Virus record (IMG/VR): IMGVR_UViG_3300009705_000049
Span: 1-36,251 of that record
Direction: 5' to 3' (one strand)
DNA length: 36,251 nt
From: a virus
Part shown: in pieces, positions 1-17,135 of the stretch
How the letters are laid out: the number at the start of each line of letters is the position of its first letter
Position numbering within the stretch: position 1 is the first letter of the stretch
Made by a program: the position numbers and the translations under genes
Notes under the pieces: model-generated
The model's input: only the letters and a program-made list of their open reading frames with translations
Database searches by the model: none
What the model was told of the DNA's origin: nothing

Positions 1-69
1 ACCTTGACATTCAATAATAACGCCAACGCCATCCCAACTAACTTGCTTCACCAGATCACCGACTTGCAC
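1..69 (-). CDS. GDLV-family small protein, partial at window edge
   Basis: Only the first 23 codons are present; the gene runs off the left edge. A GTG start at 69 is chosen because AGAGGT lies five bases upstream and the reading opens V-Q-V-G-D-L-V, the N-terminal signature shared with at least thirteen other small genes in this window. It overlaps the end of the gene at 56-256 by 14 nt, the same junction seen at 502-515, 3562-3575 and 3755-3768. The following residues V-G-V-I-I resemble a second conserved strand in the paralogs. The function is unknown; an SH3/KOW-like small beta-barrel is inferred from the pattern only. Confidence 0.7.
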   Translation of the reverse strand, partial: MQVGDLVKQVSWDGVGVIIECQG

Positions 70-256
70 TGAGCACCTCTGGATCATTTTCGATTTGCCT
101 GCCAAGTTCGATGTGCCTGCCATCAACGAGTACCTTCCAGTCGTATTCCAAGCTGTCGTTTCTCGGCAACTTTGCAATCAAGAGGGCAACGCCTGTTGGC
201 AGTTCCCAATGATTGCGGCATCCTCTGGGTAGCTTTATCATATCACCGACTTTCAT
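56..256 (-). CDS. GDLV-family small protein (66 aa)
   Basis: The start at 256 is preferred over the longer reading to 439 because AAGGAG sits a few bases upstream and a TATAAT promoter lies at 281-309. The protein opens M-K-V-G-D-M-I-K, then has a G-V-A-L-L-I-A-K strand and a W-K-V-L-V-D-G strand, ending V-L-S-A-S-R. This order (GD motif, hydrophobic strand, W/V strand with G, C-terminal V-V/I-x-E-like tail) recurs in the paralogs and fits a small SH3/KOW-like barrel, which is inference. It is first in its operon and its last 14 nt contain the start of the next paralog. No function can be assigned. Confidence 0.8.
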   Translation of the reverse strand: MKVGDMIKLPRGCRNHWELPTGVALLIAKLPRNDSLEYDWKVLVDGRHIELGRQIENDPEVLSASR

Positions 257-280
257 ATATCTCCTTACTTGATATACTAT

Positions 281-336
281 ATTATACCACAAGGGGAGTG
301 TAATTGCAACAGGTTTCTTTGTCAAGGGATTGTCAA
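281..336 (-). promoter_or_regulatory. Compound TTGACA-box promoter for the 56-256 operon
   Basis: Reading the minus strand: box 1 TTGACA (331-336), 5 nt, box 2 TTGACA (320-325), 10 nt, -35 TTGCAA (304-309), 17 nt, -10 TATAAT (281-286). The -35/-10 pair is a near-consensus sigma-70 promoter. The two extra boxes recur upstream of five other promoters in the window. Box 1 contains the TGA stop of the gene at 333-515, so termination of that gene and the regulatory box share bases. Confidence 0.8.
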
Positions 337-515
337 GAAGGGTTGACAACTGTAAGTCGGCGTTTGATGCGGATAGTTTCACTATCAATAAGGATATCCC
401 AGCTACGATCATATCGCCAATCACCATCGGGGTTGCCATCTGGAACGGCGCGCCGGTGTTCTTTAACGATGAGCGCGACAGTGCCGCGCCACTTTACCAG
501 ATCACCGACTTTCAC
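333..515 (-). CDS. GDLV-family small protein (60 aa)
   Basis: It starts with GTG at 515, giving K-V-G-D-L-V-K-W after the initiator, followed by the strand V-A-L-I-V-K and a W-D-I-L-I-D-S strand, and ends L-T-V-V-N-P-S. The start lies inside the last codons of the upstream paralog (overlap 502-515, 14 nt), so translation is probably coupled; a weak GGTGG precedes it. The TGA stop falls within the first TTGACA box of the next promoter. It is the last gene of the operon that begins at 1221. Function is unknown; a small SH3-like barrel is inferred. Confidence 0.75.
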   Translation of the reverse strand: MKVGDLVKWRGTVALIVKEHRRAVPDGNPDGDWRYDRSWDILIDSETIRIKRRLTVVNPS

Positions 516-690
516 TTACCACCACCAAATGTTTATAATGTAAATACTTTATTTCTCCACCGAAAGCGACACCATAAAGTGATTTAGCGGTCTTATTGAC
601 CTCGACAACGATTTTGGGCATATGCCAAAAACCTTCTCTCGAAATTACTAGATCACCAATTCGTGGGCGCGGATAATTATTGATTTTCAT
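502..690 (-). CDS. GDLV-family small protein (62 aa)
   Basis: The start at 690 (M-K-I-N-N-Y) is chosen over the longer reading to 780 because it places R-I-G-D-L-V near the N-terminus as in the paralogs and gives a short overlap (677-690) with the SWIM gene upstream. After the GD motif come K-I-V-V-E-V-N-K and Y-G-V-A-F-G-G-E strands, and the C-terminus is H-L-V-V-V-S-E-S-R. The S-E-S-R codons also encode the GTG start and first residues of the next paralog in another frame. Function is not known. Confidence 0.72.
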   Translation of the reverse strand: MKINNYPRPRIGDLVISREGFWHMPKIVVEVNKTAKSLYGVAFGGEIKYLHYKHLVVVSESR

Positions 691-988
691 TTTTAATCTC
701 TGTGATATGCCGACACTTACGCCGAAAACCGAAACCGGGACAAGAGCAGGAATAAGAACCCTTAGAGAGTTTAACAGCATAAATATTTCCTTTGCTACCC
801 GTTACACTCCAAGAGTTTTCGCCGGCAACAGGGGCTGCCTCACGGCGCGTATATACCATATACTCTGATAACCCATCGAGAGTAATATCAGCCGGCACCT
901 CAACCCATATGGATCCAGCGATCCCGTAACGGATCCCAGTGTGGCTCGTAAAAAGTGCTGGCTCCATGTCAACTTCGATCGGATTCAT
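677..988 (-). CDS. SWIM zinc-finger small protein (103 aa)
   Basis: The C-terminal part holds a SWIM zinc-binding motif: C81 and C83 in S-C-S-C-P-G-F, then C92 and H94 in K-C-R-H, the CxC-xn-CxH pattern. SWIM domains are known to bind DNA or proteins in helicases, transposases and phage accessory proteins. The start at 988 (M-N-P-I-E-V) overlaps the TGA of the preceding 32-aa gene in an ATGA arrangement, which is why it is preferred to the longer reading to 1042. The N-terminal 70 residues match nothing I recognise. It lies in the operon of two tiny membrane proteins and GDLV paralogs. Its target is unknown. Confidence 0.78.
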   Translation of the reverse strand: MNPIEVDMEPALFTSHTGIRYGIAGSIWVEVPADITLDGLSEYMVYTRREAAPVAGENSWSVTGSKGNIYAVKLSKGSYSCSCPGFGFRRKCRHITEIKNENQ

Positions 989-1083
989 ATAAGAAGAACT
1001 CCGAGCGCAAAAAGAACGCAAGCCATGGCTGCACACAGGCACCCATGAACCACAAGCCCCATCACATCTTTATCGACTTTCAT
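985..1083 (-). CDS. Tiny membrane protein (32 aa)
   Basis: This short ORF begins M-K-V-D-K-D-V-M and is then almost entirely hydrophobic (G-L-V-V-H-G-C-L-C-A-A-M-A-C-V-L-F-A-L-G-V-L-L-I), which would make one transmembrane helix with a charged N-terminal tail. AAAGGAGG with ideal spacing precedes the ATG, and its stop overlaps the next ATG, so it looks translated. Two or three cysteines lie in the helix. Small single-helix proteins are common in phage early regions and often act on host membranes, but nothing specific can be said here. Confidence 0.6.
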   Translation of the reverse strand: MKVDKDVMGLVVHGCLCAAMACVLFALGVLLI

Positions 1084-1104
1084 TTACTACCTCCTTTCTG
1101 CTAT

Positions 1105-1221
1105 TTAGCAAGTGAAAAAGTGAATAGCGAAAAACAATAGCGTACCCCAGCACACGGCATCCGCCGCGATTAAAGCCATCGCTAACCTGTTCTGTCCAAT
1201 CTTCATAGCTGTTCTGCCCAT
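1105..1221 (-). CDS. Tiny membrane protein (38 aa)
   Basis: A 38-residue ORF starts M-G-R-T-A-M-K-I-G and continues into a helix of about 22 residues containing A-L-I-A-A-D-A-V-C-W-G-T-L-L-F-F-A-I, ending H-F-F-T-C. The basic N-terminus suggests an N-in single-pass protein. GAAAGGAG precedes the ATG by six bases, and the promoter at 1245-1273 lies just upstream, so it is the first gene of the operon running to 333. It is followed 21 nt later by another tiny membrane protein, and the two may work as a pair. No homolog is recognised. Confidence 0.6.
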   Translation of the reverse strand: MGRTAMKIGQNRLAMALIAADAVCWGTLLFFAIHFFTC

Positions 1222-1244
1222 AAAACTCTCCTTTCTATATATAT

Positions 1245-1299
1245 AATATATCATTGATCTCACCATAAGTCAAGCACTCTCTTGTAAAGAAGATGTCAA
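1245..1299 (-). promoter_or_regulatory. Compound TTGACA-box promoter for the 1221-333 operon
   Basis: Minus strand order: box 1 TTGACA (1294-1299), 5 nt, box 2 TTTACA (1283-1288), 9 nt, -35 TTGACT (1268-1273), 17 nt, -10 TATATT (1245-1250). Both extra boxes lie inside the 3' end of the upstream coding sequence, and the TGA stop of that gene (1270-1272) is inside the -35 box. Confidence 0.8.
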
Positions 1300-1473
1300 G
1301 TGAGCCACATCATAGTTTTCCTCGTCGATTACGCACATGTCACCCTCACACCAAACCACCCACATTTCAGGATGCGATTCCGGGTGAAATTGGTATAAAA
1401 CAATCGCAGGATTCGACCAATCGTCATGACCAGAGTATTCTGGCTTAAAAGAAATAAGATCACCTTTATTCAT
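1270..1473 (-). CDS. GDLV-family small protein (67 aa)
   Basis: It opens M-N-K-G-D-L-I-S-F, then P-A-I-V-L-Y-Q-F and M-W-V-V-W-C-E-G-D strands, matching the layout of the paralogs. The ATG overlaps the TGA of the mini-Smr gene (ATGA), so coupling is likely. The C-terminus, L-T-S-S-L-Q-E-S-A, is encoded by DNA that also carries the two upstream boxes and -35 of the next promoter, so it lacks the usual V-V-x-E tail. It is the last gene of the operon that starts at 3027. Function unknown. Confidence 0.78.
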   Translation of the reverse strand: MNKGDLISFKPEYSGHDDWSNPAIVLYQFHPESHPEMWVVWCEGDMCVIDEENYDVAHLTSSLQESA

Positions 1474-1676
1474 TCTACCACCACTCGGCCGGGGTTGTCG
1501 ATTGTGTCGCGCGTTGACAGGCCAAAAGGTTTAACTGCTATGTCCACCAGTCTTTTCATGTCGATAGATTTACCCGTGATGACAACGAACGGGGTGTCAT
1601 GGTCGAGGCAAGCACTTTGAATAATGTTTTCCACGCTGCTGTGCCTGACTCCATGCAAATCAATGATTACGTTCAC
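1470..1676 (-). CDS. Mini-Smr-like protein (68 aa)
   Basis: The protein reads V-I-I-D-L-H-G-V-R-H near the N-terminus, then V-V-I-T-G-K-S in the middle and G-R-V-V-V-E at the end. D-L-H-G-x and (I/V)-T-G-K are hallmarks of Smr domains, found in MutS2 and stand-alone nucleases; phages carry short versions of about 70-90 residues. The family can nick or bind nucleic acid, but the activity of this short version is not established. It starts with GTG at 1676 inside the V-I-S-E codons of the upstream GDLV paralog (17-nt overlap), the same junction register as the GDLV chain, although it is not a GDLV protein. Confidence 0.68.
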   Translation of the reverse strand: MNVIIDLHGVRHSSVENIIQSACLDHDTPFVVITGKSIDMKRLVDIAVKPFGLSTRDTIDNPGRVVVE

Positions 1677-1860
1677 TAATCACCACCAAGGTATGTGTAC
1701 CCACCCAAGCTATATCGCCATCATTAAATAAAACTTCTGCTGACTTTGTTTTGCGTCCTGTCCTAGAAAGTTTAACGACGATCCCACACTCCTGACCGTC
1801 GAGCGCACAATCCTGACCGAATTGTACCAAATCACCAATTTTAATATCGCTTAGAATCAT
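1660..1860 (-). CDS. GDLV-family small protein (66 aa)
   Basis: It begins M-I-L-S-D-I-K-I-G-D-L-V-Q-F, continues E-C-G-I-V-V-K-L-S and A-E-V-L-F-N-D-G-D strands and ends T-L-V-V-I-S-E-R-N-H. AAAGGAG lies about eight bases before the ATG, inside the upstream gene, which it overlaps by 20 nt. The G-I-V-V-K and V-L-F-x-D-G elements line up well with the other paralogs and support an SH3/KOW-like barrel, an inference from pattern. The S-E codons supply the GTG start of the mini-Smr gene. Confidence 0.78.
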   Translation of the reverse strand: MILSDIKIGDLVQFGQDCALDGQECGIVVKLSRTGRKTKSAEVLFNDGDIAWVGTHTLVVISERNH

Positions 1861-2146
1861 AGTCGCACTCCTTTATCTCTACAAATGTTGGGGTACCTTC
1901 ACCACACCATGCGCCGGCTGTATTATAATTAAACCATTCTGCTGCTTCTATTTCCGTACAATCCATCCACTCTTGGATAACATTGATACATAAATCAATG
2001 TTATAAGCAGCAACATTCATTGAATCAACTCTTGTCCAGTGATCCGTCGGCGCTGCAATCACTCCCACAAGGGCTTTGTCAAAATACTTTCGAGGTTCCA
2101 AATAAAGCGCCTCTGGGTGTATCTCTGATATTGGTTGTAATCTCAT
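1841..2146 (-). CDS. Conserved phage hypothetical protein (101 aa)
   Basis: The sequence contains A-L-V-G-V-I-A, then a segment with C-I-N-V-I-Q-E-W and T-E-I-E-A-A-E-W-F-N-Y-N-T, and the closing block G-A-W-C-G-E-G-T-P-T-F. This pattern (A-x-x-G near the start, ...EEA.E.feyN..GAW.GE.TP.f at the end) is familiar from a widespread short protein of bacteria and phages that has no assigned function. AAGGAG precedes the ATG, which overlaps the TGA of the upstream GDLV gene. It sits between two GDLV paralogs in the 3027-1270 operon. Confidence 0.75.
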   Translation of the reverse strand: MRLQPISEIHPEALYLEPRKYFDKALVGVIAAPTDHWTRVDSMNVAAYNIDLCINVIQEWMDCTEIEAAEWFNYNTAGAWCGEGTPTFVEIKECDYDSKRY

Positions 2147-2367
2147 TTATTCTCTCCTTCTTTGTTATCTTCATAAACATGCTCTAAAAACATTTCGTGA
2201 AACTTTAAGTACTCGGTCGTACCTAGGAAAACGACGGTATATGCCTCGGTCCGGTTTCCAGCACCCATGGTGCGCGCGACGATCATGCCGACCCGATGAT
2301 CGGGGATCTTGGGGTCATGGGTTCCATCGCGGATCTTCACCAGATCGCCGGGTTTAAAAGTCGTCAT
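2143..2367 (-). CDS. GDLV-family small protein (74 aa)
   Basis: With the start at 2367 the protein opens M-T-T-F-K-P-G-D-L-V-K-I, and then shows V-G-M-I-V-A-R and Y-T-V-V-F-L-G-T strands before a charged tail. An alternative ATG at 2394 would add nine residues and overlap the upstream gene by 23 nt; neither site has a strong Shine-Dalgarno, and 2367 is preferred only because paralogs keep the GD motif close to the N-terminus. The TGA overlaps the next ATG. Function unknown. Confidence 0.7.
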   Translation of the reverse strand: MTTFKPGDLVKIRDGTHDPKIPDHRVGMIVARTMGAGNRTEAYTVVFLGTTEYLKFHEMFLEHVYEDNKEGENK

Positions 2368-2371
2368 TGTC

Positions 2372-2722
2372 TTAGGTGTCTTCTGCATCGTCATCTATCT
2401 CATTCGGTAAGTCCTCCGATAATGGGTCATACTCCCATGATTTTTCATAATAGCCATCGGTATTATAACCAGCTTCGTGATAGTAAGTGGTATAATCGCT
2501 GAAATGTGGTTCCTCGTCAGAACTATAACTGATCATTGAACCTGTAAGTGTATCCCCCATGCTAACCAAAATCCTTGATAAAACTTCCTGCATATAATCT
2601 ATCTCGGCTTGCGCTTCTGCCTGCTTTGCTTCCGCTTCGATTGCAGCTTCTTCGGCTGCCTTTGCCTCTTTTTCTTCTTCGCGCTGCTTTCGGAAAGCAT
2701 TTAAGTCAACAATATCTCCCAT
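2372..2722 (-). CDS. Coiled-coil and acidic small protein (116 aa)
   Basis: The N-terminus reads I-V-D-L-N-A-F-R-K-Q-R-E-E-E, followed by about 40 residues rich in E, A, K and Q that should form a continuous helix or coiled coil. The C-terminal half is rich in Y, S, D and E (P-H-F-S-D-Y-T-T-Y-Y near the middle, an acidic D-D-D tail) and is probably disordered. N-terminal I-V-D-L-N-x-x-R-K-x-R-E-E-E openings are common in phage orphans of unknown role. Its ATG shares one base with the TAA of the upstream gene, indicating coupling. Confidence 0.72.
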   Translation of the reverse strand: MGDIVDLNAFRKQREEEKEAKAAEEAAIEAEAKQAEAQAEIDYMQEVLSRILVSMGDTLTGSMISYSSDEEPHFSDYTTYYHEAGYNTDGYYEKSWEYDPLSEDLPNEIDDDAEDT

Positions 2723-3027
2723 TAGAAAGGAAGCTCATCGTAAGAAAGTGGCGAAGACGCCCACACAAGCGGGTGCATAACCATATCGGCGGCGCGCTTT
2801 GCAATCGAAACATGCTGAGAAGTGGTCATGGAATGGAACCCGCCGGTTGCCGCCATGAAATTAGCGAGGACACAGACGCCCGCATTCGTGCGCGCGCCAA
2901 TCTTCAAGCGATAGGAGAACAGTTCTCCATCAATTGTCATGAACGTGCTCTTGTGGTTGCGCGCATTTTTTCCTTCCTTCCACGCACGAACAACATTTAG
3001 ATTATCAGTTACCGCTATTCTCGACAT
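2722..3027 (-). CDS. Conserved phage hypothetical protein (101 aa)
   Basis: The start at 3027 (M-S-R-I-A-V-T-D) has AAAGGAG seven bases upstream and lies just below a promoter, so it is preferred to the longer reading to 3132. The middle contains F-M-T-I-D-G-E-L-F-S-Y-R-L-K-I-G and the block S-M-T-T-S-Q-H-V. Short phage proteins with a G-x-L-x-S-Y-x-x-x-I-G segment followed by S-x-T-T-S-x-H-V are frequent and uncharacterised. It is the first gene of a seven-gene operon that includes three GDLV paralogs and a mini-Smr protein. Confidence 0.75.
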   Translation of the reverse strand: MSRIAVTDNLNVVRAWKEGKNARNHKSTFMTIDGELFSYRLKIGARTNAGVCVLANFMAATGGFHSMTTSQHVSIAKRAADMVMHPLVWASSPLSYDELPF

Positions 3028-3055
3028 GCAAATCTCCTTTTGCTTTACTTTACTA

Positions 3056-3110
3056 AGTATACGACATTTGCGAAAAAAAGTCAATGTATTTCTTGTCAGG
3101 GAAATGTCAA
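3056..3110 (-). promoter_or_regulatory. Compound TTGACA-box promoter for the 3027-1270 operon
   Basis: Minus strand order: box 1 TTGACA (3105-3110), 5 nt, box 2 CTGACA (3094-3099), 9 nt, -35 TTGACT (3079-3084), 17 nt, -10 TATACT (3056-3061). The TGA stop of the gene at 3107-3376 is inside box 1. Confidence 0.82.
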
Positions 3111-3376
3111 ATCCCGGGATAGTCTGGATCATTGTTAAACAAATCTTCGGCGTAGTCCTTTGTGAACCTCAAGCCGGCCGGGTCAACGCCATCATTGTGT
3201 GCGGCGATCGCTTTTTTTGCAAATATACGTAGCATCTTGATATGTTTAATCTTTCCGTAAGAAAGTTGTGGTCCGTAGGGCATACCGGCATATTTGCGAT
3301 AAAAATGACCAGCGATTTTGAAAGTATCGCGGATGCCATCAATATCGTCGGTGTCTATTACTAATGTTAACTTCAT
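3107..3376 (-). CDS. Hypothetical protein (89 aa)
   Basis: The protein begins M-K-L-T-L-V-I-D-T-D-D-I-D-G-I-R-D-T-F and continues with a basic, helical middle (K-I-K-H-I-K-M-L-R-I-F-A-K-K-A). No family is recognised. It starts inside the V-V-N-E codons of the upstream GDLV paralog (38-nt overlap), at the same position relative to that tail at which the other paralogs place the next start. Its stop lies in the first box of the next promoter. It is the last gene of the 3967-3107 operon. Confidence 0.7.
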   Translation of the reverse strand: MKLTLVIDTDDIDGIRDTFKIAGHFYRKYAGMPYGPQLSYGKIKHIKMLRIFAKKAIAAHNDGVDPAGLRFTKDYAEDLFNNDPDYPGI

Positions 3377-3575
3377 TTACAACCTCTATTTGATCTCTAG
3401 CTGGCGCCAATATATGTTCCTTTCCACGTTCGATGCACCACATCCTCCAAACGCAAAACTCACCCATGTCGGGTGTCTCAAATATAATCCCGTGATATGG
3501 TTCTGTCCATACAACCTCACGAAGATCATCAACGCCATCGGCGTAACGAACCCTGATCAGGTCACCGACCTTCAT
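3339..3575 (-). CDS. GDLV-family small protein (78 aa)
   Basis: It opens M-K-V-G-D-L-I-R-V-R-Y-A-D-G, has H-G-I-I-F-E-T and E-F-C-V-W-R-M-W strands, and a C-terminal I-E-V-V-N-E-V-N that reads on for eight more residues past the usual end. The start overlaps the V-H-E-G-R end of the previous paralog by 14 nt. The extension after V-V-N-E suggests that the usual TGA was lost when a non-paralogous gene was joined downstream. Function unknown; an SH3-like barrel is inferred. Confidence 0.77.
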   Translation of the reverse strand: MKVGDLIRVRYADGVDDLREVVWTEPYHGIIFETPDMGEFCVWRMWCIERGKEHILAPARDQIEVVNEVNISNRHRRY

Positions 3576-3768
3576 GCACTACCTTCATATCTGCTTGCGG
3601 GATCCCGCGATTATCACCCTTAAAAAGAATGCGAGCAAACGGCTCGTAGGGGATTGCTCCCCAATTTATTTTCTTGCCCATATCATCGGTTCGCCAGCAC
3701 TTGCTATCGTAAACTTCCGTTACCAAACAAATGCTATCGTTCCACATTACTAAATCACCCGCCTTCAT
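3562..3768 (-). CDS. GDLV-family small protein (68 aa)
   Basis: It opens M-K-A-G-D-L-V-M-W, then I-C-L-V-T-E-V-Y and F-A-R-I-L-F-K-G-D strands, ending M-K-V-V-H-E-G-R. The ATG is encoded within the I-N-E-G-G end of the preceding paralog (14-nt overlap), and its own end encodes the start of the following paralog by the same arrangement. It is the middle of three chained paralogs. Lengths and element spacing agree with the family; no catalytic motif is seen. Confidence 0.78.
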   Translation of the reverse strand: MKAGDLVMWNDSICLVTEVYDSKCWRTDDMGKKINWGAIPYEPFARILFKGDNRGIPQADMKVVHEGR

Positions 3769-3967
3769 TTATAACCTCCAGCCATTTTTGCGGTTCCCAA
3801 CATGTTTCTTCATCTTGAATCCAGTAAACTTTAACGCGACCTATTCGCCGATCATGGTACCGATCATCCTTTGTCTTCAAAACAATGGCGATAGGCGTAG
3901 GTTCACCTTCCCTTAGCTTTTGTCCCGGCATTATTACCATATCGCCAACTTTAATCTTCTCAGACAT
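3755..3967 (-). CDS. GDLV-family small protein (70 aa)
   Basis: It opens M-S-E-K-I-K-V-G-D-M-V-I-M, then I-A-I-V-L-K-T and R-V-K-V-Y-W-I-Q-D strands, and ends W-L-E-V-I-N-E-G-G. AAGGAGAGG precedes the ATG, and the compound promoter at 3987-4041 is 20 nt upstream, so it leads the four-gene operon to 3107. It begins the best preserved chain of paralogs in the window. Function is unknown. Confidence 0.8.
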   Translation of the reverse strand: MSEKIKVGDMVIMPGQKLREGEPTPIAIVLKTKDDRYHDRRIGRVKVYWIQDEETCWEPQKWLEVINEGG

Positions 3968-3986
3968 AACCTCTCCTTACTCTTAT

Positions 3987-4041
3987 AATATATCATGCAC
4001 TGCGGCTGTTGTCAATGTTTATTGTGTCAAGGAATTGTAAA
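3987..4041 (-). promoter_or_regulatory. Compound TTGACA-box promoter for the 3967-3107 operon
   Basis: Minus strand order: box 1 TTTACA (4036-4041), 5 nt, box 2 TTGACA (4025-4030), 9 nt, -35 TTGACA (4010-4015), 17 nt, -10 TATATT (3987-3992). Here the element lies fully between genes; the upstream gene ends at 4085. Confidence 0.82.
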
Positions 4042-4084
4042 AGGAAAATCTGGGCGGAAAAAAATCGCGCGGCGGGGCTGGTAT

Positions 4085-4270
4085 CTATGCTCTCGCTAGT
4101 CCGTTCTTAAAATACCACCGGGGTTCCCCGGCGTGGTTCCACTTCACTATGTATCTAGGATCCCCGTGTGTGTATTCAACAGACAGTATAAGTCCAAGTT
4201 TGCCCTTCCAATAATCTCGTGGACTTTTGCGCCGAACTAGATCACCTGCCTTAAACTTAGAATATACCAT
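4085..4270 (-). CDS. GDLV-family small protein (61 aa)
   Basis: It opens M-V-Y-S-K-F-K-A-G-D-L-V-R-R-K, then L-G-L-I-L-S-V-E and Y-I-V-K-W-N-H-A-G strands, followed by R-W-Y-F and a short end without the V-V-x-E tail. The strand pattern is the clearest KOW/SH3-like one of the set (G-L-I-L, I-V-K-W, then W-Y). It starts one base after the stop of the upstream gene and is the last gene of the long tRNA-containing operon. Function unknown. Confidence 0.78.
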   Translation of the reverse strand: MVYSKFKAGDLVRRKSPRDYWKGKLGLILSVEYTHGDPRYIVKWNHAGEPRWYFKNGLARA

Positions 4271-4271
4271 T

Positions 4272-4574: not shown

Positions 4575-4799
4575 TTATATATCTCCGTCTAAGATACTCT
4601 GAATGGTATCTGAAAGTTCTACAACGCTCATCGCTTTCTCTGACAGTTCATTTAGAATCTGCTGAATATCATACAGCTTTTTTTGCGGTGAAATAACTTG
4701 TATTCTAGGGTTTTTTGTTTGCTTCTTCATTTCTTCTGCTTCGCTTTTTTTAAGGCTACTCCATTTGGAAGTATAGCCGCCGTAATCGTGGTAAGACAT
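4575..4799 (-). CDS. Hypothetical helical protein (74 aa)
   Basis: A small protein beginning M-S-Y-H-D-Y-G-G-Y and then basic (K-K-S-E-A-E-E-M-K-K-Q), with a C-terminal helix of about 30 residues (Y-D-I-Q-Q-I-L-N-E-L-S-E-K-A). I recognise no family. It lies 30 nt below tRNA-Asn and is probably released from the same precursor by tRNA processing. An AGAGAGA stretch precedes the ATG. Confidence 0.65.
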   Translation of the reverse strand: MSYHDYGGYTSKWSSLKKSEAEEMKKQTKNPRIQVISPQKKLYDIQQILNELSEKAMSVVELSDTIQSILDGDI

Positions 4800-4829: not shown

Positions 4830-4906
4830 TGGCTCCCGTTGAAAGACTTGAACTTTCGACCCTCTGATTAACAGTCAGATGCTCTAACCAACTGAGCTAA
4901 ACGGGA
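4830..4906 (-). tRNA. tRNA-Asn (GUU)
   Basis: A full cloverleaf can be folded: acceptor TCCCGTT with AACGGGA, D-arm TAGCTCAGTTGGTTAGA, anticodon loop C-T-GTT-A-A, T-loop TTCAAGT, and an encoded CCA end at 4830-4832. It shares a transcript with four other tRNAs and with mRNA genes; only 7 nt separate it from tRNA-Arg. Confidence 0.95.
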
Positions 4907-4913
4907 ATGTAGA

Positions 4914-4990
4914 TGGTACACCCTGTTGGATTCGAACCAACGACCCTCGGCTTAGAAGGCCGATGCTCTATCCAGCTGAGCTAAGGGTGT
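4914..4990 (-). tRNA. tRNA-Arg (UCU)
   Basis: Acceptor ACACCCT pairs with AGGGTGT, the anticodon loop is C-T-TCT-A-A, the T-loop is TTCGAAT and CCA is encoded at 4914-4916. UCU reads AGA/AGG, codons often served by phage-borne tRNAs. Confidence 0.95.
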
Positions 4991-4995
4991 ATAGC

Positions 4996-5241
4996 TCATG
5001 CTATCTCAAAGAGATCGTGATTCTGCATGAGTGTCCTATTCCCGCGAGCGGCGTTATCTTCGACGAAGTCTTCGTAAAAATAAACTGGATGGTCACCAGA
5101 CACAAGGGCAATCAAACATTCACCGGCACTGGCAGCCAAACGCATAGCAGTGAGCCATGCATCTTTCCTATCCATCACGCCAGTATATCGAGTCCGGTAT
5201 AGCTGTCCCTGAGCACCTTGGTAGATTGCTGTGTAAATCAT
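4996..5241 (-). CDS. Hypothetical protein (81 aa)
   Basis: The start at 5241 (M-I-Y-T-A-I-Y-Q-G) is chosen because TGGAGA lies about eight bases upstream and it follows the stop of the 5246-5494 gene; a longer reading to 5259 would overlap that gene. The protein has a beta-like start, an A-W-L-T-A-M-R-L-A-A helix and an I-A-L-V-S-G-D strand. No family is recognised. It ends five bases before tRNA-Arg, with which it is presumably co-transcribed. Confidence 0.68.
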   Translation of the reverse strand: MIYTAIYQGAQGQLYRTRYTGVMDRKDAWLTAMRLAASAGECLIALVSGDHPVYFYEDFVEDNAARGNRTLMQNHDLFEIA

Positions 5242-5245
5242 TATA

Positions 5246-5494
5246 TTATTCTCCATCATTTGATTTTAATTCTTCCTCAATCTCTTTACATATAATAACA
5301 GGAATAGATTCTTTTGTCAACTTTAAAATGTAAAAAGTATCCCCTTCTTTGATCTCGCACGGAAACGCGGTGAGGGGTAGCACTGCGTGTCCTATTTGAT
5401 TGGTACTTGGATTCGTGTTGATTTCAACCGTTGCCAAAAAATCATCGGTGGAGTCTATCGTTCCGATTAGAACGAATGTTGTTAGTAATTTCAT
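5246..5494 (-). CDS. Hypothetical beta-rich protein (82 aa)
   Basis: An 82-residue protein starting M-K-L-L-T-T-F-V-L-I-G-T-I-D-S-T, mostly beta-forming, with I-K-E-G-D-T-F-Y-I-L-K-L-T and an acidic C-terminus. The E-G-D-x-F-Y segment loosely recalls the GD motif of the small paralogs but sits in the middle of the chain, so I do not place it in that family. AGGAGAG precedes the ATG. It lies between tRNA-Met and tRNA-Arg. Confidence 0.68.
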   Translation of the reverse strand: MKLLTTFVLIGTIDSTDDFLATVEINTNPSTNQIGHAVLPLTAFPCEIKEGDTFYILKLTKESIPVIICKEIEEELKSNDGE

Positions 5495-5518
5495 ATCTTG
5501 TATTCTCTCCTGTTAAAA

Positions 5519-5595
5519 TGGTGGGCATTCTCGGGCTTGAACCGAGGACCATCCCGTTATGAGCGGGGTGCTCTGACCAACTGAGCTAAATGCCC
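5519..5595 (-). tRNA. tRNA with CAU anticodon (Met, or Ile2)
   Basis: Acceptor GGGCATT pairs with AATGCCC; anticodon loop C-T-CAT-A-A; T-loop TTCAAGC; encoded CCA at 5519-5521. It lacks the G-C triplets of initiator anticodon stems and has a fully paired first acceptor base pair, so it is not an initiator. Elongator Met and lysidine-modified Ile2 cannot be told apart from this alone. Confidence 0.92.
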
Positions 5596-5607
5596 TATGG
5601 GGTAAAA

Positions 5608-5683
5608 TGGTGGGTCCACCGGGACTCGAACCCGGAACCTGCGGATTAAAAGTCCGATGCTCTACCAGTTGAGCTATGGACCC
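5608..5683 (-). tRNA. tRNA-Lys (UUU)
   Basis: Acceptor GGGTCCA pairs with TGGACCC; anticodon loop C-T-TTT-A-A; T-loop TTCGAGT; encoded CCA at 5608-5610. It lies 12 nt before the CAU tRNA on the minus strand. Confidence 0.95.
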
Positions 5684-5693
5684 GTTTATTGCA

Positions 5694-5894
5694 TTATTCT
5701 GTGGGCGCCTTGATTTTCTTCGGGGACTGACACAATCCTTCTTCAATCAAACTCATCGCGTGGCGACCAAACCAACCTTGTAACGTCCAAGCAAGTCCTG
5801 AATCGATCAAGTGCTGCCATGCTTCATAATACTGGGATGGGCGATCATGGGCAATAAATCCTTCTGCAATACCAATCGCATCGTAATCAGACAT
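5694..5894 (-). CDS. Conserved small phage protein (66 aa)
   Basis: The start at 5894 (M-S-D-Y-D-A-I-G) overlaps the end of the upstream gene by 8 nt and is preferred over 5906. The core is Y-Y-E-A-W-Q-H-L-I-D-S-G-L-A-W, then L-Q-G-W-F-G-R-H-A and L-I-E-E-G-L-C. Short phage proteins with E-x-A-W-x-x-L-(I/V)-D-(S/T)-G-L-A-W-x-L-Q-G-x-(F/Y)-G-R are common and uncharacterised. It ends 10 nt before tRNA-Lys, so the mRNA must be cut close to its stop codon when the tRNA matures. Confidence 0.78.
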   Translation of the reverse strand: MSDYDAIGIAEGFIAHDRPSQYYEAWQHLIDSGLAWTLQGWFGRHAMSLIEEGLCQSPKKIKAPTE

Positions 5895-6096
5895 CCATTT
5901 CACCATTGTGTAAAGTCTCTTCGTGGACTGTCAGTAGCTCACCAGTCTCCAGCAGGTGAATCACCCAGCCGCGCTCAGTGGTCTGAACTACGTCGTCGAC
6001 CTCATCGAGCGCAATACACTCACCCTCGACCTCGCACTCATCTAGCAACACCGCTGGACCTTGATCCAACCATGCTTTTACTTGCCCCGCTTTCAT
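5887..6096 (-). CDS. Small acidic protein, distant GDLV-like (69 aa)
   Basis: It opens M-K-A-G-Q-V-K-A-W, then P-A-V-L-L-D-E-C and W-V-I-H-L-L-E-T-G-E strands. Strand order and length resemble the GDLV proteins, but the GD pair is G-Q, so membership is uncertain. AAAGGAAG lies upstream of the ATG. It begins 23 nt after tRNA-Leu and is the first protein gene of the mixed tRNA operon. Confidence 0.7.
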   Translation of the reverse strand: MKAGQVKAWLDQGPAVLLDECEVEGECIALDEVDDVVQTTERGWVIHLLETGELLTVHEETLHNGEMDV

Positions 6097-6119
6097 AATA
6101 CTTCCTTTGTTAATTTAAA

Positions 6120-6206
6120 TGGTAGGACCGGCGGGAATCGAACCCGCATGCTCGATCGAGCGAGAGATTTTAAGTCTCTTGTGTCTACCAATTCCACCAC
6201 GGTCCC
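6120..6206 (-). tRNA. tRNA-Leu (UAA)
   Basis: A class II tRNA with a long variable arm (stem CGCTCG / CGAGCA). Acceptor GGGACCG pairs with CGGTCCT with one G-U pair; anticodon loop C-T-TAA-A-A; T-loop TTCGATT; encoded CCA at 6120-6122. It is the first gene after the promoter at 6222-6250. Confidence 0.95.
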
Positions 6207-6221
6207 TCTTACTACTCTACT

Positions 6222-6286
6222 ATAATACCACTACCGGCGCCGAATGTCAACCACTTTCTACACCTTTTCTGTCAAGAAGATGTCAT
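6222..6286 (-). promoter_or_regulatory. Compound TTGACA-box promoter for the tRNA/mRNA operon
   Basis: Minus strand order: box 1 ATGACA (6281-6286), 5 nt, box 2 TTGACA (6270-6275), 19 nt, -35 TTGACA (6245-6250), 17 nt, -10 TATTAT (6222-6227). The gap from box 2 to the -35 is 10 nt longer than the usual 9, about one helical turn. The first base of tRNA-Leu lies 16 nt below the -10. Confidence 0.82.
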
Positions 6287-6657
6287 CATACTTTCTTCAA
6301 CCAATCTTCCGGGCACCAATTTTCTTCCTCTTTAGACATTGATTCGTATGCCGAGGGTTTCTTGAACCATCGTATACGTGCGAACTTATATTTTGGCTTC
6401 TTGCACCAGCCATGGCCATTGTACGTAAAGAACACTTTCGCAGCTTTAGGATTATTGCAGCGGTCCATTAGCTCGTCTCGGTATTTTATTCTATCCCCGT
6501 ATCTCTTCATTGAAGTCAGGGTAGTGATCACTTCAGAAAGAGGCACGTCGAGTCCCGCTTCTTCTGAAGCATCCTCGATCTTTTCTATGACGATACCAAG
6601 CCCCTTATTCTTTCTTCGATACAAGCATACTAAATCTCCTACATTGACTTTTGGCAT
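6286..6657 (-). CDS. GDLV-family protein, long member (123 aa)
   Basis: The start at 6657 has CGGAGG upstream and is preferred to 6687. The protein opens M-P-K-V-N-V-G-D-L-V-C-L-Y-R-R-K, then G-L-G-I-V-I-E-K-I. An inserted, mostly helical segment of about 60 residues separates this from a second half with F-A-R-I-R-W-F and W-C-P-E-D-W-L-K-K-V. The end resembles the W-x-x-x-x-W-L-x-V ending of the paralog at 3755-3967. It is the only gene of its own promoter before the tRNA operon promoter. Function unknown. Confidence 0.78.
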   Translation of the reverse strand: MPKVNVGDLVCLYRRKNKGLGIVIEKIEDASEEAGLDVPLSEVITTLTSMKRYGDRIKYRDELMDRCNNPKAAKVFFTYNGHGWCKKPKYKFARIRWFKKPSAYESMSKEEENWCPEDWLKKV

Positions 6658-6732: not shown

Positions 6733-7025
6733 TAGTCATCTCGTTTCGGAGCTTCTAAGATTGCGTCGATGTAGCCCGCCGGCACTTTCAAAATTATGTA
6801 ACGCCACCCCATCCACTTTGCTGAATGAAGCGTTTGAGTTAAAAATGGGTCAAGGTTATCGGAAGGATCGGCGACTTCTAAAACCAATACAATATGATTT
6901 CCACCATCGTCTGAGTCAAAGCAAACGGTAAATCGGCCGTCAAACACGCTAGCGGCATGCTGCATTAAGTTTTTCTTAGCATCACTCTTCTCTGCTTTTT
7001 CGCCACCAAAATATAAACTAGCCAT
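6729..7025 (-). CDS. Hypothetical protein (98 aa)
   Basis: The protein begins M-A-S-L-Y-F-G-G-E-K and contains F-T-V-C-F-D-S-D-D-G-G, then H-I-V-L-V-L-E-V and a W-R-Y-I-I-L-K-V-P strand, so an alpha/beta fold is likely. I recognise no family. The ATG overlaps the stop of the upstream GDLV paralog by 8 nt. Its stop codon is inside the first box of the next promoter. Confidence 0.68.
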   Translation of the reverse strand: MASLYFGGEKAEKSDAKKNLMQHAASVFDGRFTVCFDSDDGGNHIVLVLEVADPSDNLDPFLTQTLHSAKWMGWRYIILKVPAGYIDAILEAPKRDDY

Positions 7026-7269
7026 AGCTCGCTCCCCCTTTACTTAAAATTTCAATATCATCTTCTGCCCCGTCTAATATTATTAAACGGTAATCAGGAT
7101 CAAACCCGCAGGAGTGAACCACTATGGCGGACTCTCTCACGGGAGATATTTGCATCACAATCCCATATTTATAAATGGGATCGGCGCCCACTAACTTATC
7201 GGGGTAGGCAGCAAACGTCGCATGTCCTATTATCCAACGCACTAAGTCACCTTTAGAGAATCTATCCAC
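7018..7269 (-). CDS. GDLV-family small protein (83 aa)
   Basis: A GTG start at 7269 gives D-R-F-S-K-G-D-L-V-R-W after the initiator. The next elements are Y-G-I-V-M-Q-I-S and S-A-I-V-V-H-S-C-G-F, then Y-R-L-I-I-L and I-E-I-L-S-K. There is no clear Shine-Dalgarno and the gene follows glutaredoxin after 15 nt, so the start is less certain than for its relatives. It ends in an 8-nt overlap with the next gene. Function unknown. Confidence 0.7.
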   Translation of the reverse strand: MDRFSKGDLVRWIIGHATFAAYPDKLVGADPIYKYGIVMQISPVRESAIVVHSCGFDPDYRLIILDGAEDDIEILSKGGASYG

Positions 7270-13700: not shown

Positions 13701-14335
13701 TCCTTCGCTAACTCATAGTTACTGGGATCCTCGTTCAAAAATACAGCGATTGTGTCGTATTTGTTCCAGAAGTTACGGAAGCGAGATTGAAGCATGTTGT
13801 TTAAATCTTCTTTTGTCGTCTCGACCTTTTCGGAGGGGATGCCGGCTTTGCTCAGAGCTTTAACTGCCTTCATTATCATCTTGCGCCATGTACCAAAAGG
13901 TTTAGCTACGCCGTTCTTTACATTCTGAATAACAAATTTAACGCGCTTGCCTTGTTCAATCTTCTCTTCGTCGTACGCTTTGCGAGTTGATGGCTCACGA
14001 ACCATTCCATCAACAGTACCGGGATCCCGCTGGCGTACACCGACGTCGCTAGGTCTGCCTTCGTCATCTTTCACTCCTTCTGGATATACATACTCACTGT
14101 ACTCGTTAATCAGAGTGTTAACGAGAGTAAATTGTAGTTCCGTCAGCGGCCGGCGGGTTTCGGTGCCAGCCTTCCATAAATTGCCCATAAGCATCTTGGA
14201 TTTTTCAGGAGCCTTCGGCATTGCCGACTCGATAAAGTCGGTGACGAATTCTGGAAGACCAATATCTCGTAAGCCTTCGGTTAGTGTATGATCCTCTTTT
14301 AAATAACGGAACCACATATCTGTAGATTTTTGCAT
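10790..14335 (-). CDS. Large phage protein with PcfJ-like HCG block (1181 aa)
   Basis: This is the longest gene in the window. Residues about 242-330 contain F-D-D-G-S-Y-W-Y-N-L, E-G-E-R-M-G-H-C-G, G-V-L-V-S-L-R and L-Y-Q-I-K-G-R-N-N-D-A-P, the arrangement of PcfJ-like regions in many large phage proteins, whose role is unknown. The N-terminus carries M-W-F-R-Y-L-K-E-D, similar to the start of the 8455-9417 protein. The remainder is polar, acidic in the middle (residues ~340-560) and helical towards the end. Size and N-terminal tag would fit a virion-associated or injected protein, which is inference. A T-rich stretch, but no clear promoter, precedes the ATG. Confidence 0.75.
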   Translation of the reverse strand: MQKSTDMWFRYLKEDHTLTEGLRDIGLPEFVTDFIESAMPKAPEKSKMLMGNLWKAGTETRRPLTELQFTLVNTLINEYSEYVYPEGVKDDEGRPSDVGVRQRDPGTVDGMVREPSTRKAYDEEKIEQGKRVKFVIQNVKNGVAKPFGTWRKMIMKAVKALSKAGIPSEKVETTKEDLNNMLQSRFRNFWNKYDTIAVFLNEDPSNYELAKDAKLHDGSGFDIEELSTIATSYLENKEDPDGVMHTFDDGSYWYNLQVSNCSVEGERMGHCGSDTRGVLVSLRKRKEKRKESSSYVTMTWDGETLYQIKGRNNDAPPEEVWEHIAWFIDNMQIDTVEENGEHSNDVDGFVEMNDWLARNTSASFSGNLEEIVEMVQDNVTTIESTFYDTRSENENTSIGCDVQTGEDFGGDARSIYLSMSGEVSFQINLGWKGFELRNNEFTPTLGPDDTTRDENLETIPENTWGGGARDFVNEINLDDLSYEMPGEDPEIEYEVEMLIHADPNWETGMPDSTPTAHLIIRIRSDQTGDSDIDDPGEVYEYQSFADGMLEFDHGFDEYSERLRRSLVEGNYMSKNSYDRAEEGLAEMQLQNFKVFKDDSGVEFWFTPPTEADGNLIITDVTIPVDVKQYVSDSDDNIGHTEKLFGDMFGSRFGLAHQKQISTEHLNVRMAAHIQTAYRKSMQLDPKQLSLGFGSKYSRVDPRLVLAKDSRFAIVPQISRNRQYPNRYADMGIAWKYTIGISSKSPEGEVDIIKNVIQVLDENPQLIISAANEIIEIALEPQIEKAEKRKDKVLSNQEFAKAIQQIKSIHSANADTGNPEAEKVILFTLWFENNIERMNEVQRYVMWKYWLNPLVDRRFRMFGENSGIELDDKANLGKPRMFDDKVFNHTQKLGAAPGQSTAATSLNESPEEQIARIERMLEEADEQYDLRLYAIKLGVTVSKEFGGTESETATEIRGIPGVTTVRPIADKKRDITAQSEYVLYDIKFGLLGAKSRVEYRDQVLLPALRLIKGLKVLTVSSMHRTNRQGTIRTVRETKVMQEYLAEQAGGFGGLAGALGSQRSNISNRRTTPRPPVQSMIDDWAEGGVMAYDAPTDSTDMRYHTMMAVEDLLPYMSRVYRGNKMDFDGRYKNFIRTGATHPVYLAIGQNGRAKVTGSEDLIWFAKKSGLAELPVFLSFQKQV

Positions 14336-14372
14336 ATTTTTACCTCAACACAATAAATAGTCAGGTTTCCAA

Positions 14373-15140
14373 CTAACCGCTGGCAAAAAGGTCAGTGGAT
14401 AGTAGCTTGGCGGTGTCTCTCCAGCTTTCGACTTCGACGGCATGTCCATTCTTGTGCTCCTTCAACAGCACTGCAAGAGAGTGATCGTTACCGGGGAAGG
14501 GTATCCTGTCGCCCACGAACACAATGCGGTGGTCTTTGAGCTTATCTTTCAAGACTCTATCAATGACTTGCGATTTATCATTACCTTTGTTAAATATATC
14601 TATACTCACCGCGCCGCCGATCACAAAGTCAATGCCTTTATACTTTTTCGAGAGCTTCTTGACTATCTTTTCTCGTTCCTTAAACTCTGCGTCATATTCT
14701 TCATAGGCTTTTCGTTGTTCCATTGTGGCGTTTCTACCCACAATTGAAAAGTTTATCATGCCGACGCGCTCTTCATAGTGGCGACCGGTCTTAATATGAA
14801 ACGGAGAGTCTTTCACGATCCAGTCGAGTGCTGCATAGAAGTCTTCCTTCTTTTTGATATCAAAACTATTCTCGTACAACCTTATCCACTCGCCATAACC
14901 ATCACTCTTGTTACGGTGATTCCTGTAATATGCGTTGCCCATGCAAGCAAATATTCCCTGCACCTGATCAAGAATGGGGCGCTTTACCTGATTCAAGATT
15001 CTTATAAAAGATCCGCCCGACACAATGTATACTTCTCGAGCCTTTGACCAGTTCAAAAACTGCGTAGCGAACTTAGGGTCTATGTCTTTTTTTGCGGGTG
15101 TGAGCGTGCCGTCTACATCAAACAAGTATATGGTATTCAT
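14373..15140 (-). CDS. Eukaryotic-type phosphomannomutase, HAD superfamily (255 aa)
   Basis: The start at 15140 (M-N-T-I-Y-L) has GGAAG upstream. HAD motif I is F-D8-V-D10-G-T-L-T-P. The cap region has N-F-S-I-V-G-R-N-A-T-M-E-Q-R and Y-E-E-Y-D, matching the G-R-S-x-T-x-E-E-R sugar-phosphate block of human PMM. The end has I-G-G-A-V-S-I-D-I-F-N-K-G-N-D-K-S and V-G-D-R-I-P-F-P-G-N-D-H. Full length fits the alpha-PMM family (about 245-260 residues), which converts mannose-6-P and mannose-1-P. Bacteria normally use the unrelated ManB/AlgC type, so this form in a phage is notable. It could feed GDP-sugar synthesis for glycan or DNA modification. Confidence 0.88.
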   Translation of the reverse strand: MNTIYLFDVDGTLTPAKKDIDPKFATQFLNWSKAREVYIVSGGSFIRILNQVKRPILDQVQGIFACMGNAYYRNHRNKSDGYGEWIRLYENSFDIKKKEDFYAALDWIVKDSPFHIKTGRHYEERVGMINFSIVGRNATMEQRKAYEEYDAEFKEREKIVKKLSKKYKGIDFVIGGAVSIDIFNKGNDKSQVIDRVLKDKLKDHRIVFVGDRIPFPGNDHSLAVLLKEHKNGHAVEVESWRDTAKLLSTDLFASG

Positions 15141-15144
15141 TCGC

Positions 15145-15495
15145 TTACTTCCAAAATAGTTGGATTCCAACTATCGCGAAGGAGAGTGTCACACAAATCA
15201 TTGTCTTGGTGGTGAACATGCTCTCATTTAAAAAGTAGTAAGTCAATAGAGGGAAGGTGAAATAAGACATACTAAAGATCAAAAACCTTGGTCCCCATAT
15301 TTGACCCATCTCTTCGTATGCAATCTTAACCCCATACCAAAAACAAATTCCAGTGGGTATTGAAAACATAATTGCTGAGATGAGGGGTTTATCTTTCCAC
15401 CAATCCCATACAAACTGCGAGTTTAGCTGGAACCAGCCGAGTGTTTGCCCAATGGCGAACAAGCAGCATGCGAATAATAAGTTAGAAGTTGGCAA
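15145..15495 (-). CDS. Small multi-pass membrane protein, EamA/SMR-like (116 aa)
   Basis: Four hydrophobic segments are visible: F-A-C-C-L-F-A-I-G-Q-T-L near the start, L-I-S-A-I-M-F-S-I-P-T-G-I, F-L-I-F-S-M-S-Y-F-T-F-P-L-L-T-Y-Y-F, and I-C-V-T-L-S-F-A-I-V-G-I-Q-L-F. The T-Y-Y-F-L-N-E-S segment before the last helix recalls EamA and small multidrug transporters. A TTG start at 15495 has GAGGAG at good spacing and overlaps the upstream gene. It ends five bases before the phosphomannomutase start. A transport role is suggested by topology only. Confidence 0.72.
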   Translation of the reverse strand: MPTSNLLFACCLFAIGQTLGWFQLNSQFVWDWWKDKPLISAIMFSIPTGICFWYGVKIAYEEMGQIWGPRFLIFSMSYFTFPLLTYYFLNESMFTTKTMICVTLSFAIVGIQLFWK

Positions 15496-16252
15496 CGATG
15501 ATCTCCTCTGCTCTTTCTTTGTGGGCAGTTTCTACCCCATATTTATCTACCATAATAAGCCTATTGTTTTTAAATGCAGACAATACGCGTTGGTCGTAAT
15601 CATATGTAATTAAAATTTTGATGTTTTTATCTTTGCACAATTTAATCAGTTCTTTGTGATTAATCGAAGTCTGTTCGATGGCCACACTCTTGCCATACTC
15701 AAATAAGTTATAATTGAACCTACCACCCAAAACCAAATTATAGCTTTCTGAGTTTGATTTCTTAATTTGTTTTATGGGATGCTCTGGAGATAAGTTTAGA
15801 TGAAAATTGTCTGGTACAGAGAATGTTTTCAATTTAGCGATCGCGGTTGGTGCCAGTTGTTTTAAGTCCAGCTCTCCCGAAGATACAAGACCGTTCGATG
15901 AACATCTGTTCATGATAAAAAATAAACTAGCTGTAATAATTGGACTGCTATGGCTATGCCACATATCCTGCAACGTTGCCAGTATCGCTTCGCCATCGAA
16001 TCTTAGGGAGTCAGAGGATACCATCGCATGTAACCTGCTTGGATCGTACATTAAGCATCTCCAAAAAGTATATACAGGAAGACTCGTAGTGTTCGCGCTT
16101 ATAAAGCGTTCATCATTGGCCAACGAAAATTCTATCTTACCATCATAAAACGCATAAGAATTGATTACAGAGCCGGCAGGTATTATTTTTTTTACAGTTG
16201 ATGCGCAGTTATTTTTCTTGGTTCTATCTAATATCAGCGTCATTTTCGTCAC
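15482..16252 (-). CDS. Uncharacterised protein, possibly Dam-related (256 aa)
   Basis: The best blocks are V-Y-T-F-W-R-C-L-M-Y-D-P, F-F-I-M-N-R-C-S-S-N-G-L, L-G-G-R-F-N-Y-N-L-F-E and I-L-I-T-Y-D-Y-D. The F-F-x-x-N-R-x-S-x-x-G segment resembles the substrate-side block of D12-class adenine methylases, but no F-x-G-x-G cofactor motif or DPPY catalytic motif is visible, so methylation activity is doubtful. Starts at GTG 16252 or ATG 16243 are both possible; both overlap the upstream gene. It ends inside the start of the membrane protein gene. Confidence 0.6.
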   Translation of the reverse strand: MTKMTLILDRTKKNNCASTVKKIIPAGSVINSYAFYDGKIEFSLANDERFISANTTSLPVYTFWRCLMYDPSRLHAMVSSDSLRFDGEAILATLQDMWHSHSSPIITASLFFIMNRCSSNGLVSSGELDLKQLAPTAIAKLKTFSVPDNFHLNLSPEHPIKQIKKSNSESYNLVLGGRFNYNLFEYGKSVAIEQTSINHKELIKLCKDKNIKILITYDYDQRVLSAFKNNRLIMVDKYGVETAHKERAEEIIVANF

Positions 16253-16631
16253 TACTTTCAGTATCTGCTAACTTGTTCTTGAAATTAGAGATCTTTTCCT
16301 GTAATTCGGAAAGCTCAGGCGCACTGCCGGCTGCCGCCTCTAGCGGATTGGGGGCGCGCGGGACACTCTGCATCATCTCTTGAGATTTATAAGATAAAAA
16401 GGAGCTGATTATCATATTAACATCAGCCAAGATAGCGTCAACATCAGATAGATTGAGCCTGAGCTGATCTATCTGACTGTGTGAATCAACCGACAATGTT
16501 GTGATTGCTCGACTGGTGTTACTATCAGCGCAATCTCGAATAAGAGAAAAAGCTTTGTCGGCTAGCCTTTGTACCTCTTCTTCTAAATCCTCGATTTTAA
16601 CTGAATATTGTATATTAACTCTTTGTGACAT
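16224..16631 (-). CDS. Coiled-coil protein (135 aa)
   Basis: The protein opens M-S-Q-R-V-N-I-Q-Y-S-V-K-I-E-D-L-E-E-E-V-Q-R-L and contains a second helical segment around I-D-Q-L-R-L-N-L-S-D-V-D-A-I-L, then an alanine/proline linker and a C-terminal helix E-L-S-E-L-Q-E-K-I-S-N-F. I recognise no family. AGAGGA lies just before the ATG, within the stop region of the upstream gene. Its neighbours are the FlbD-like and the possibly Dam-related genes. Confidence 0.7.
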   Translation of the reverse strand: MSQRVNIQYSVKIEDLEEEVQRLADKAFSLIRDCADSNTSRAITTLSVDSHSQIDQLRLNLSDVDAILADVNMIISSFLSYKSQEMMQSVPRAPNPLEAAAGSAPELSELQEKISNFKNKLADTESSDENDADIR

Positions 16632-16633
16632 TC

Positions 16634-16927
16634 TTATCCTCTTAGTAATTGTTTTGTCTGGTTTAGTGATTGCTCAACAATATCCGGCGATCCCACTACA
16701 ACTATCTCTGTTCCTGTGTGGCCGCGGTTTATCGTTAATTTTGTAAAGCTGTGTTCATTTGCAAGCCCAGCGGGCAGCATCCCCTGCTCGTTTAGCTGAC
16801 GCATTCTTGCTTCTTCCCGGATCATTATAACATGTTCGGGATTGACAAAAACTTCTCTTAAGCTATAATCTTGCTGTGTTGTAAGGGCGCCATTTTGGCA
16901 CACTTCTGTAAGTTTAACCAATCCCAT
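16634..16927 (-). CDS. FlbD-like small protein (97 aa)
   Basis: The start at 16927 gives M-G-L-V-K-L-T-E-V, with a 14-nt overlap with the upstream GDLV gene. The sequence then shows V-F-V-N-P-E-H-V-I-M-I-R-E, F-T-K-L-T-I-N-R-G and E-I-V-V-V-G-S-P. This order (V-K-L-T start, V-N-P-x-x-I-x-x-I, T-x-L-x-x-G, V-V-x-x-S/P) resembles the short flagellar-region FlbD family and similar phage proteins. A function in the phage is not known. It starts in the same coupled block as groEL. Confidence 0.65.
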   Translation of the reverse strand: MGLVKLTEVCQNGALTTQQDYSLREVFVNPEHVIMIREEARMRQLNEQGMLPAGLANEHSFTKLTINRGHTGTEIVVVGSPDIVEQSLNQTKQLLRG

Positions 16928-17135
16928 CGTTATTCTCCATGGGGTATACGTGTCTTCTTTCAACCGTAGCTTCTCGACCCTGGGCATAAACGCGATACAA
17001 TGACTTGGATGCCTCCTCTCGCAGAAATACCCCAGTGATAGGCTTCTCCGTCTTGGTTACGTTCATGGTTCCCTCTGGTGTGGAACTCCACAAGTTAACA
17101 TCTTGCGGAATATGTACTAAATCTCCCTGTCGCAT
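16914..17135 (-). CDS. GDLV-family small protein next to GroEL (73 aa)
   Basis: It opens M-R-Q-G-D-L-V-H-I-P and continues I-T-G-V-F-L-R-E-E and Y-R-V-Y-A-Q-G-R-E-A strands, then R-R-H-V-Y-P. The ATG comes one base after the groEL stop, so it is probably translated by re-initiation on the groEL transcript. It is the only GDLV member outside the left 7.3 kb, and its next gene again starts inside it by a 14-nt overlap. Whether it has a chaperonin-related role cannot be told from sequence. Confidence 0.72.
   Translation of the reverse strand: MRQGDLVHIPQDVNLWSSTPEGTMNVTKTEKPITGVFLREEASKSLYRVYAQGREATVERRHVYPMENNDGIG

Follow-up and report, generated by a model that had tools for sequence, protein, structure and literature searches.

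The first half of the DNA analysed here (the window, 36,251 nucleotides of IMG/VR virus record IMGVR_UViG_3300009705_000049) holds many small genes whose products begin with nearly the same G-D-(L/M)-(V/I) motif, often end alike, and differ strongly in between. How does a single virus come to carry so many of them, and what might they do? The window represents part of the genome of a T4-type marine phage that has no close cultured relative. We think it probable that its GDLV genes form a recombination-friendly cassette array of small SH3-like barrel genes, whose products are probably host-directed binders. The architecture of the array and the shuffling of its genes are well supported; a role in binding or counter-defence is our inference.

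Members of the family and where they occur

The fourteen genes listed in the initial annotation are all present, on the minus strand and with the motif (Table 1). The last of them (16914-17135) has the motif but belongs to a separate lineage, which stands outside the arrays in several relatives. Two ORFs that had been added as looser members (5887-6096 and 30932-31153) lack the G-D and have no convincing family support, and we do not count them; another, at 2372-2722 (MGDIVDLNAF...), fits the start pattern and was rejected by eye as long, acidic and alanine-rich. No Pfam or PHROG family accounts for the window cassettes or for the A1 members, and no family library gives the GDLV proteins a name. 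As to their neighbours, genes resembling the SWIM-like gene 677-988 stand before cassettes in two other contigs (L071 and L112), no relatives of the PHROG_13182-like gene 1841-2146 were found in viral contigs, and five tRNA genes (Asn, Arg, Met, Lys, Leu) lie in the array region at 4830-6206.

Table 1. Family members, junctions, promoter-like sites and an adjoining gene, in window positions
Feature	Position	Strand	Remarks
GDLV cassette, cut by contig end	1..69	-	14-bp overlap with gene ending at 56
Junction overlap, 14 bp	56..69	-	56-256 end / 1-69 start
GDLV cassette, cluster 28	56..256	-	relatives in L083, L094
Overlapping sigma-70-like promoter sites ahead of 56-256	281..325	-	consensus match only
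GDLV cassette, cluster 9	333..515	-	
Junction overlap, 14 bp	502..515	-	502-690 end / 333-515 start
GDLV cassette, cluster 14	502..690	-	
SWIM zinc-finger-like gene	677..988	-	its end shares 14 bp with 502-690; Pfam SWIM E 0.0012, narrowly short of cut-off
Sigma-70-like promoter site	1245..1273	-	consensus match only
GDLV cassette, cluster 5	1270..1473	-	
GDLV cassette, cluster 0	1660..1860	-	predicted SH3-like barrel; AF2 pLDDT 82.1, pTM 0.69
GDLV cassette, cluster 2	2143..2367	-	
GDLV cassette, cluster 27	3339..3575	-	
Junction overlap, 14 bp	3562..3575	-	3562-3768 end / 3339-3575 start
GDLV cassette, cluster 4	3562..3768	-	predicted barrel; AF2 pLDDT 86.3, pTM 0.68; located elsewhere in G001
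Junction overlap, 14 bp	3755..3768	-	3755-3967 end / 3562-3768 start
GDLV cassette, cluster 6	3755..3967	-	heads overlapping three-gene run
Sigma-70-like promoter site ahead of 3755-3967 run	3987..4015	-	11/12 consensus match
GDLV gene, weakly DUF1918-like	4085..4270	-	Pfam DUF1918 E 6.7e-5, 22.9 bits, below cut-off of 24
Longer GDLV gene at array flank	6286..6657	-	orthologues in G001, G002
GDLV gene at array flank	7018..7269	-	orthologue in G001
GDLV gene directly after groEL	16914..17135	-	one conserved copy in relatives; no array cassette

The window is not alone. With its GroEL as query, 66 viral loci were found, and several of these records carry the 20-bp start motif 12-31 times on one strand, with reversed-pattern controls near zero. 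When IMG/VR was scanned for a 26-bp junction pattern, 39 stretches came back, most of which are arrays. Dozens of related contigs have arrays, the largest holding 32 family genes (by gene calling) in one 17-kb stretch of L071. A protein match to the window GroEL is present in 23 of 30 records checked (only marginal in 2 of the 23). Gp23 and portal of T4 type, as well as a RecA-family protein, are encoded by all seven large relatives (136-204 kb). Cultured phages gave no match to the single array protein and the single stretch of array DNA with which they were compared, and their closest GroEL shares about 46% identity with that of the window. Two matches in bacterial MAGs were considered as pointers to a host and rejected, misbinning or chimaerism being likely: L116 is a short Red Sea contig, and L117 (CP070664.1, a WOR-3 MAG) has a run of N near the switch from bacterial to phage-like genes, so that its array-like phage genes probably sit beside bacterial ones in a chimaeric or misbinned assembly.

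Some other genes of the window deserve mention. A DnaE-like PolIII alpha polymerase (27504-30977), whose best cultured-phage matches are about 29-33% identical, occurs in this phage clade carrying T4-type Gp23 and portal. GroEL (17137-18717) is accompanied in the same phage by a GroES-like ORF (33881-34159, by eye), and there are two ClpP-like ORFs (20459-21127 and 26894-27499, the second by eye only) and an IMP dehydrogenase-like ORF (22881-23903, by eye).

Are the GDLV genes a real family, or only genes with a similar beginning? On the examined loci the 20-bp start motif gives 385 starts on the sense strand and 0 on the opposite strand, and the reversed start pattern finds about none, so that the clustering of these genes greatly exceeds what chance would give. 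By body similarity, 531 genes, with starts picked by a simple rule, fall into 324 clusters, 235 of them singletons. When both ends are removed, the profiles of the bodies still resemble each other more than reversed profiles do (9 pairs against 0 at Prob>=10; Mann-Whitney p = 7e-10), which indicates that the homology reaches past the GDLV start, if weakly.

Predicted fold and expression

The suggestion that these are KOW/SH3-like proteins is supported by two AlphaFold2 models of divergent members, 1660-1860 and 3562-3768. In both, five predicted strands follow in the same order and a short helical turn precedes the fifth; in 3562-3768 some 20 additional residues are inserted between strands 2 and 3. 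Among the fold matches of the first model are PetP, Tudor, PWWP, HspQ, YorP and KOW, with seven BFVD matches below E 0.001 and no PDB match below that value (best E 0.006, TMq about 0.66-0.71); for the second, the PDB matches are weak, all with E > 0.001. At the sequence level, profiles match SPT5, UBE2O-like and uL24 chains only marginally, and the Pfam KOW threshold was not reached (KOWx_SPT5, 13.6 bits against a cut-off of 20). Conservation lies in the regions of strands 1, 2, 3 and 5, and variation in the loops and around strand 4. A similar predicted fold and size are found in YorP of B. subtilis (PDB 2heq), Gp30.5 of phage TuIa and other BFVD entries. We are not aware that small SH3-like proteins of the YorP or Gp30.5 type have been reported in tandem arrays overlapping by 14 bp. 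About a dozen of the best 50 BFVD matches of model m7981372fc06f bear accessions A0A516L* or A0A516M* and may be paralogues deposited together in a single submission of environmental viruses.

Sub-arrays follow sigma-70-like promoter sites, and probably they would therefore be made early by the host RNA polymerase as translationally coupled operons, early expression being read here from such sites only. The one at 3987..4015 has TTGACA, 17 nt, TATATT, and a TG before the second hexamer; overall, promoter-like sites exceed shuffles moderately (28 against 17.1, sd 4.4). Directly before the ATG of three array-head genes (L072 2444, L069 10815, L096 13253, sense-oriented) we also observed TATATTATATAT, a -10-like element lying some 6 nt ahead of the start, which suggests leaderless transcripts or a promoter joined at the gene junction.

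One may ask, then, whether the barrels are KOW-like binders of nucleic acids or ribosomes that regulate phage or host transcription or translation, with no part in counter-defence. The presence of KOW/uL24/SPT5 and Tudor/PWWP among the sequence and fold matches, together with the early-type promoter-like sites, speaks for this, but every match is marginal, SH3-like barrels serve many roles, and so many divergent bodies suit many targets better than one. We consider it unlikely, while regarding it as a serious alternative.

The junction and the exchange of cassettes

In the arrays, adjoining family members usually overlap by exactly 14 bp, as they do at four places in the window (Table 1), a feature that the initial annotation does not mention. 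This length was found in 222 pairs, the next commonest (4 bp) in 27; most loci outside the groEL set were retrieved by the junction pattern itself, so that junction counts there are enriched by choice, whereas the set reached through groEL, before any pattern retrieval, contains 52 exact overlaps. Around the overlap lies a junction of 33 bp (consensus TGGAGGTGATCAGTGAAAGTCGGTGATTTGGTA) with a mean identity of 0.84 over 207 overlapping pairs, against 0.35 for an equal stretch of body. Within it, the final strand and stop codon of the preceding gene coincide with the ribosome site, start codon and opening strand of the gene that follows: in ...GGAGGTTATAAATGAAGGCGGGTGATTTAGT... one frame ends E-V-I-N-E-G-G-stop and the other opens M-K-A-G-D-L-V. 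Since the stop TGA lies inside GGT-GAT (the G-D codons) and the ribosome-binding site GGAGG inside the E-V codons, the V-(V/I)-x-E ending that had been listed as a family motif is present but is not an independent one; in overlapping pairs it is the last strand and, largely, the start of the neighbour in the other frame. A further 35 overlaps of 14 bp link a cassette to an ORF outside the strict family pattern. Some of these partners are variant members (MKVGSLV, MKVGNLV). Others are unrelated to the family, a GIY-YIG-looking ORF in L114 among them, and such genes acquire an N/S-E-S-R-like tail. The four window junctions contain no overlapping minus-strand promoter-like site and no minus-strand terminator-like site, and the RNA fold of a single junction was unremarkable (z -1.0).

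Because gene ends overlap in one common 33-base sequence, whole genes can be gained, lost and reordered with their frames intact, and comparison between contigs indicates that they are. For orthologues in different contigs with an overlapping right neighbour, that neighbour is of the same cluster in 7 cases and of a different one in 81. Ends of BLASTN matches fall at junctions in 41 of 71 cases on the left and 30 of 76 on the right (expected 11.5%), these ends not all being independent because some contigs are related. An allele series (numbers are body clusters) reads 0=20 in L099, 0=19=20 in L109 and 0=19=19=55=54=20 in L071; the shared bodies are about 83-99% identical and the differences are whole-cassette indels with both edges inside the junction. 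Cassette 55 has a body 100% identical between L071 and L094, yet neither of its neighbours is the same in the two contigs. The window run 6=4=27 (3967 to 3339) is kept in L075, whereas in G001 cassette 4 is elsewhere and 6 is joined directly to 27. A family radiating inside one genome is thus not the best description; what we see is a clade-wide pool of cassettes, with orthologues of window genes in other phages, often beside other neighbours.

These observations are consistent with a simple mechanism. Each gene body would be flanked by two copies of the 33-bp junction and, as all junctions are nearly the same, homologous recombination inside them could add, remove or swap whole genes while preserving both frames and the overlap, probably assisted by the phage's own RecA/UvsX-type protein.

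The point to be raised against this is that the junction could be conserved just for translation and folding, with shuffling as a by-product: constraint alone (overlapping frames, ribosome site, strands 1 and 5) would keep it, and of illegitimate recombination events only those that kept the boundary would have survived. Nearly all junction positions are indeed coding or translational, with TGA fixed and GGAGG lying within codons as described, and homogenisation of junctions within genomes, for which a strong effect had been expected, is slight (0.769 against 0.754, p = 0.015). On the other hand, breakpoints fall inside the common junction, and when cassettes are swapped the variant base in the tail of the upstream one (S-A-S-R / M-Q-V) remains attached to it. 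A bias is also seen at third positions outside the overlap, although codon preference could cause this. On balance, we find constraint without recombination in the junction rather improbable.

The strong differences between bodies with common ends also invite the idea of an arms race, which the initial annotation mentions. The bodies would then owe their divergence to rapid change of amino acids in response to host targets. The pairwise test that had been proposed there gives the opposite picture: over 88 comparable pairs dN/dS is 0.31 pooled and 0.25 in the median, that is purifying, and it exceeds 1 in just 3 pairs, all near saturation. Since, in addition, the ORF behind the motif start is intact in 384 of 385 cases, with a length of at least 40 codons, we see no arms race by positive selection, and think it very unlikely. 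The genes are therefore kept; cassette turnover and long divergence account for their diversity, in which no positive selection is detectable. A neutral or selfish expansion, in which unequal crossing over multiplies tandem repeats and their products do little, would fit the widely varying copy number, the many singleton bodies and the repeated MKVGDLVRMKVGDLVR start in L088, which resembles a slip product, but given the intact ORFs and the low median dN/dS it was already disfavoured and is the least credible of all. The L088 stretch in question (5071-5286, sense-oriented) has the repeated start MKVGDLVRMKVGDLVRMW, likely a trace of slippage or unequal exchange.

Known systems and possible significance

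Integrons are also arrays of exchangeable single-gene cassettes, with attC sites and an integrase; the exchange points of the GDLV arrays differ in being near-identical junctions within coding sequence. Among open-licence papers we found no exact precedent for such arrays, the closest being the shuffling associated with PeSLs, promoter-plus-stem-loop elements of T4-type phages (Arbiol et al. 2010, Comeau et al. 2014, as cited in PMC4503421). As far as that citing account describes them, the likeness lies in a T4-type phage, a repeated short boundary element and regions of gene shuffling. The GDLV junction differs in having neither promoter (in the window junctions) nor stem-loop (in the one folded), in lying within the overlap of two coding sequences and carrying start, stop and ribosome site, and in mostly joining members of one protein family. 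The "ORFanage" of cyanophage S-PM2, for which its authors propose mispackaging and illegitimate recombination, is likewise a run of small orphan genes with rarely conserved synteny, carried by a marine T4-like phage; the portions of PMC4503421 concerned with it report no common gene-overlap junction or paralogous barrel family.

What would such an array be used for? With core strands conserved and loops variable, the most likely use would be a changeable set of small binders against host machinery or defences, and it is plausible that the GDLV proteins are aimed at several targets. We put forward a part in counter-defence or host takeover only tentatively. Nip of phage phi3T is a counter-defence protein with predicted SH3-like domains (PMC11984713), but it offers a functional analogy only, being a single gene for 279 aa with two SH3-like domains and an HU-like domain. 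A bolder and more doubtful proposal is that we are looking at an undescribed diversification system, in which a clade-wide pool of barrel binders would be held as frame-safe cassettes, the overlapping coding ends would serve as recombination sites, and each lineage would reassemble from them its early anti-defence repertoire.

The cassette array gives a concrete account, at the level of DNA, of how genes may turn over in the variable "dark matter" regions of large phages without being broken, and the idea of a start-stop overlap as exchange point is directly testable. Such arrays are easily recognised, one 26-bp pattern being enough to find them, and if the barrels are host-directed binders they would be a large source of candidate host-takeover and counter-defence proteins. 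If our reading is true, the virus would have a simple route to keep altering its toolkit of small binders.
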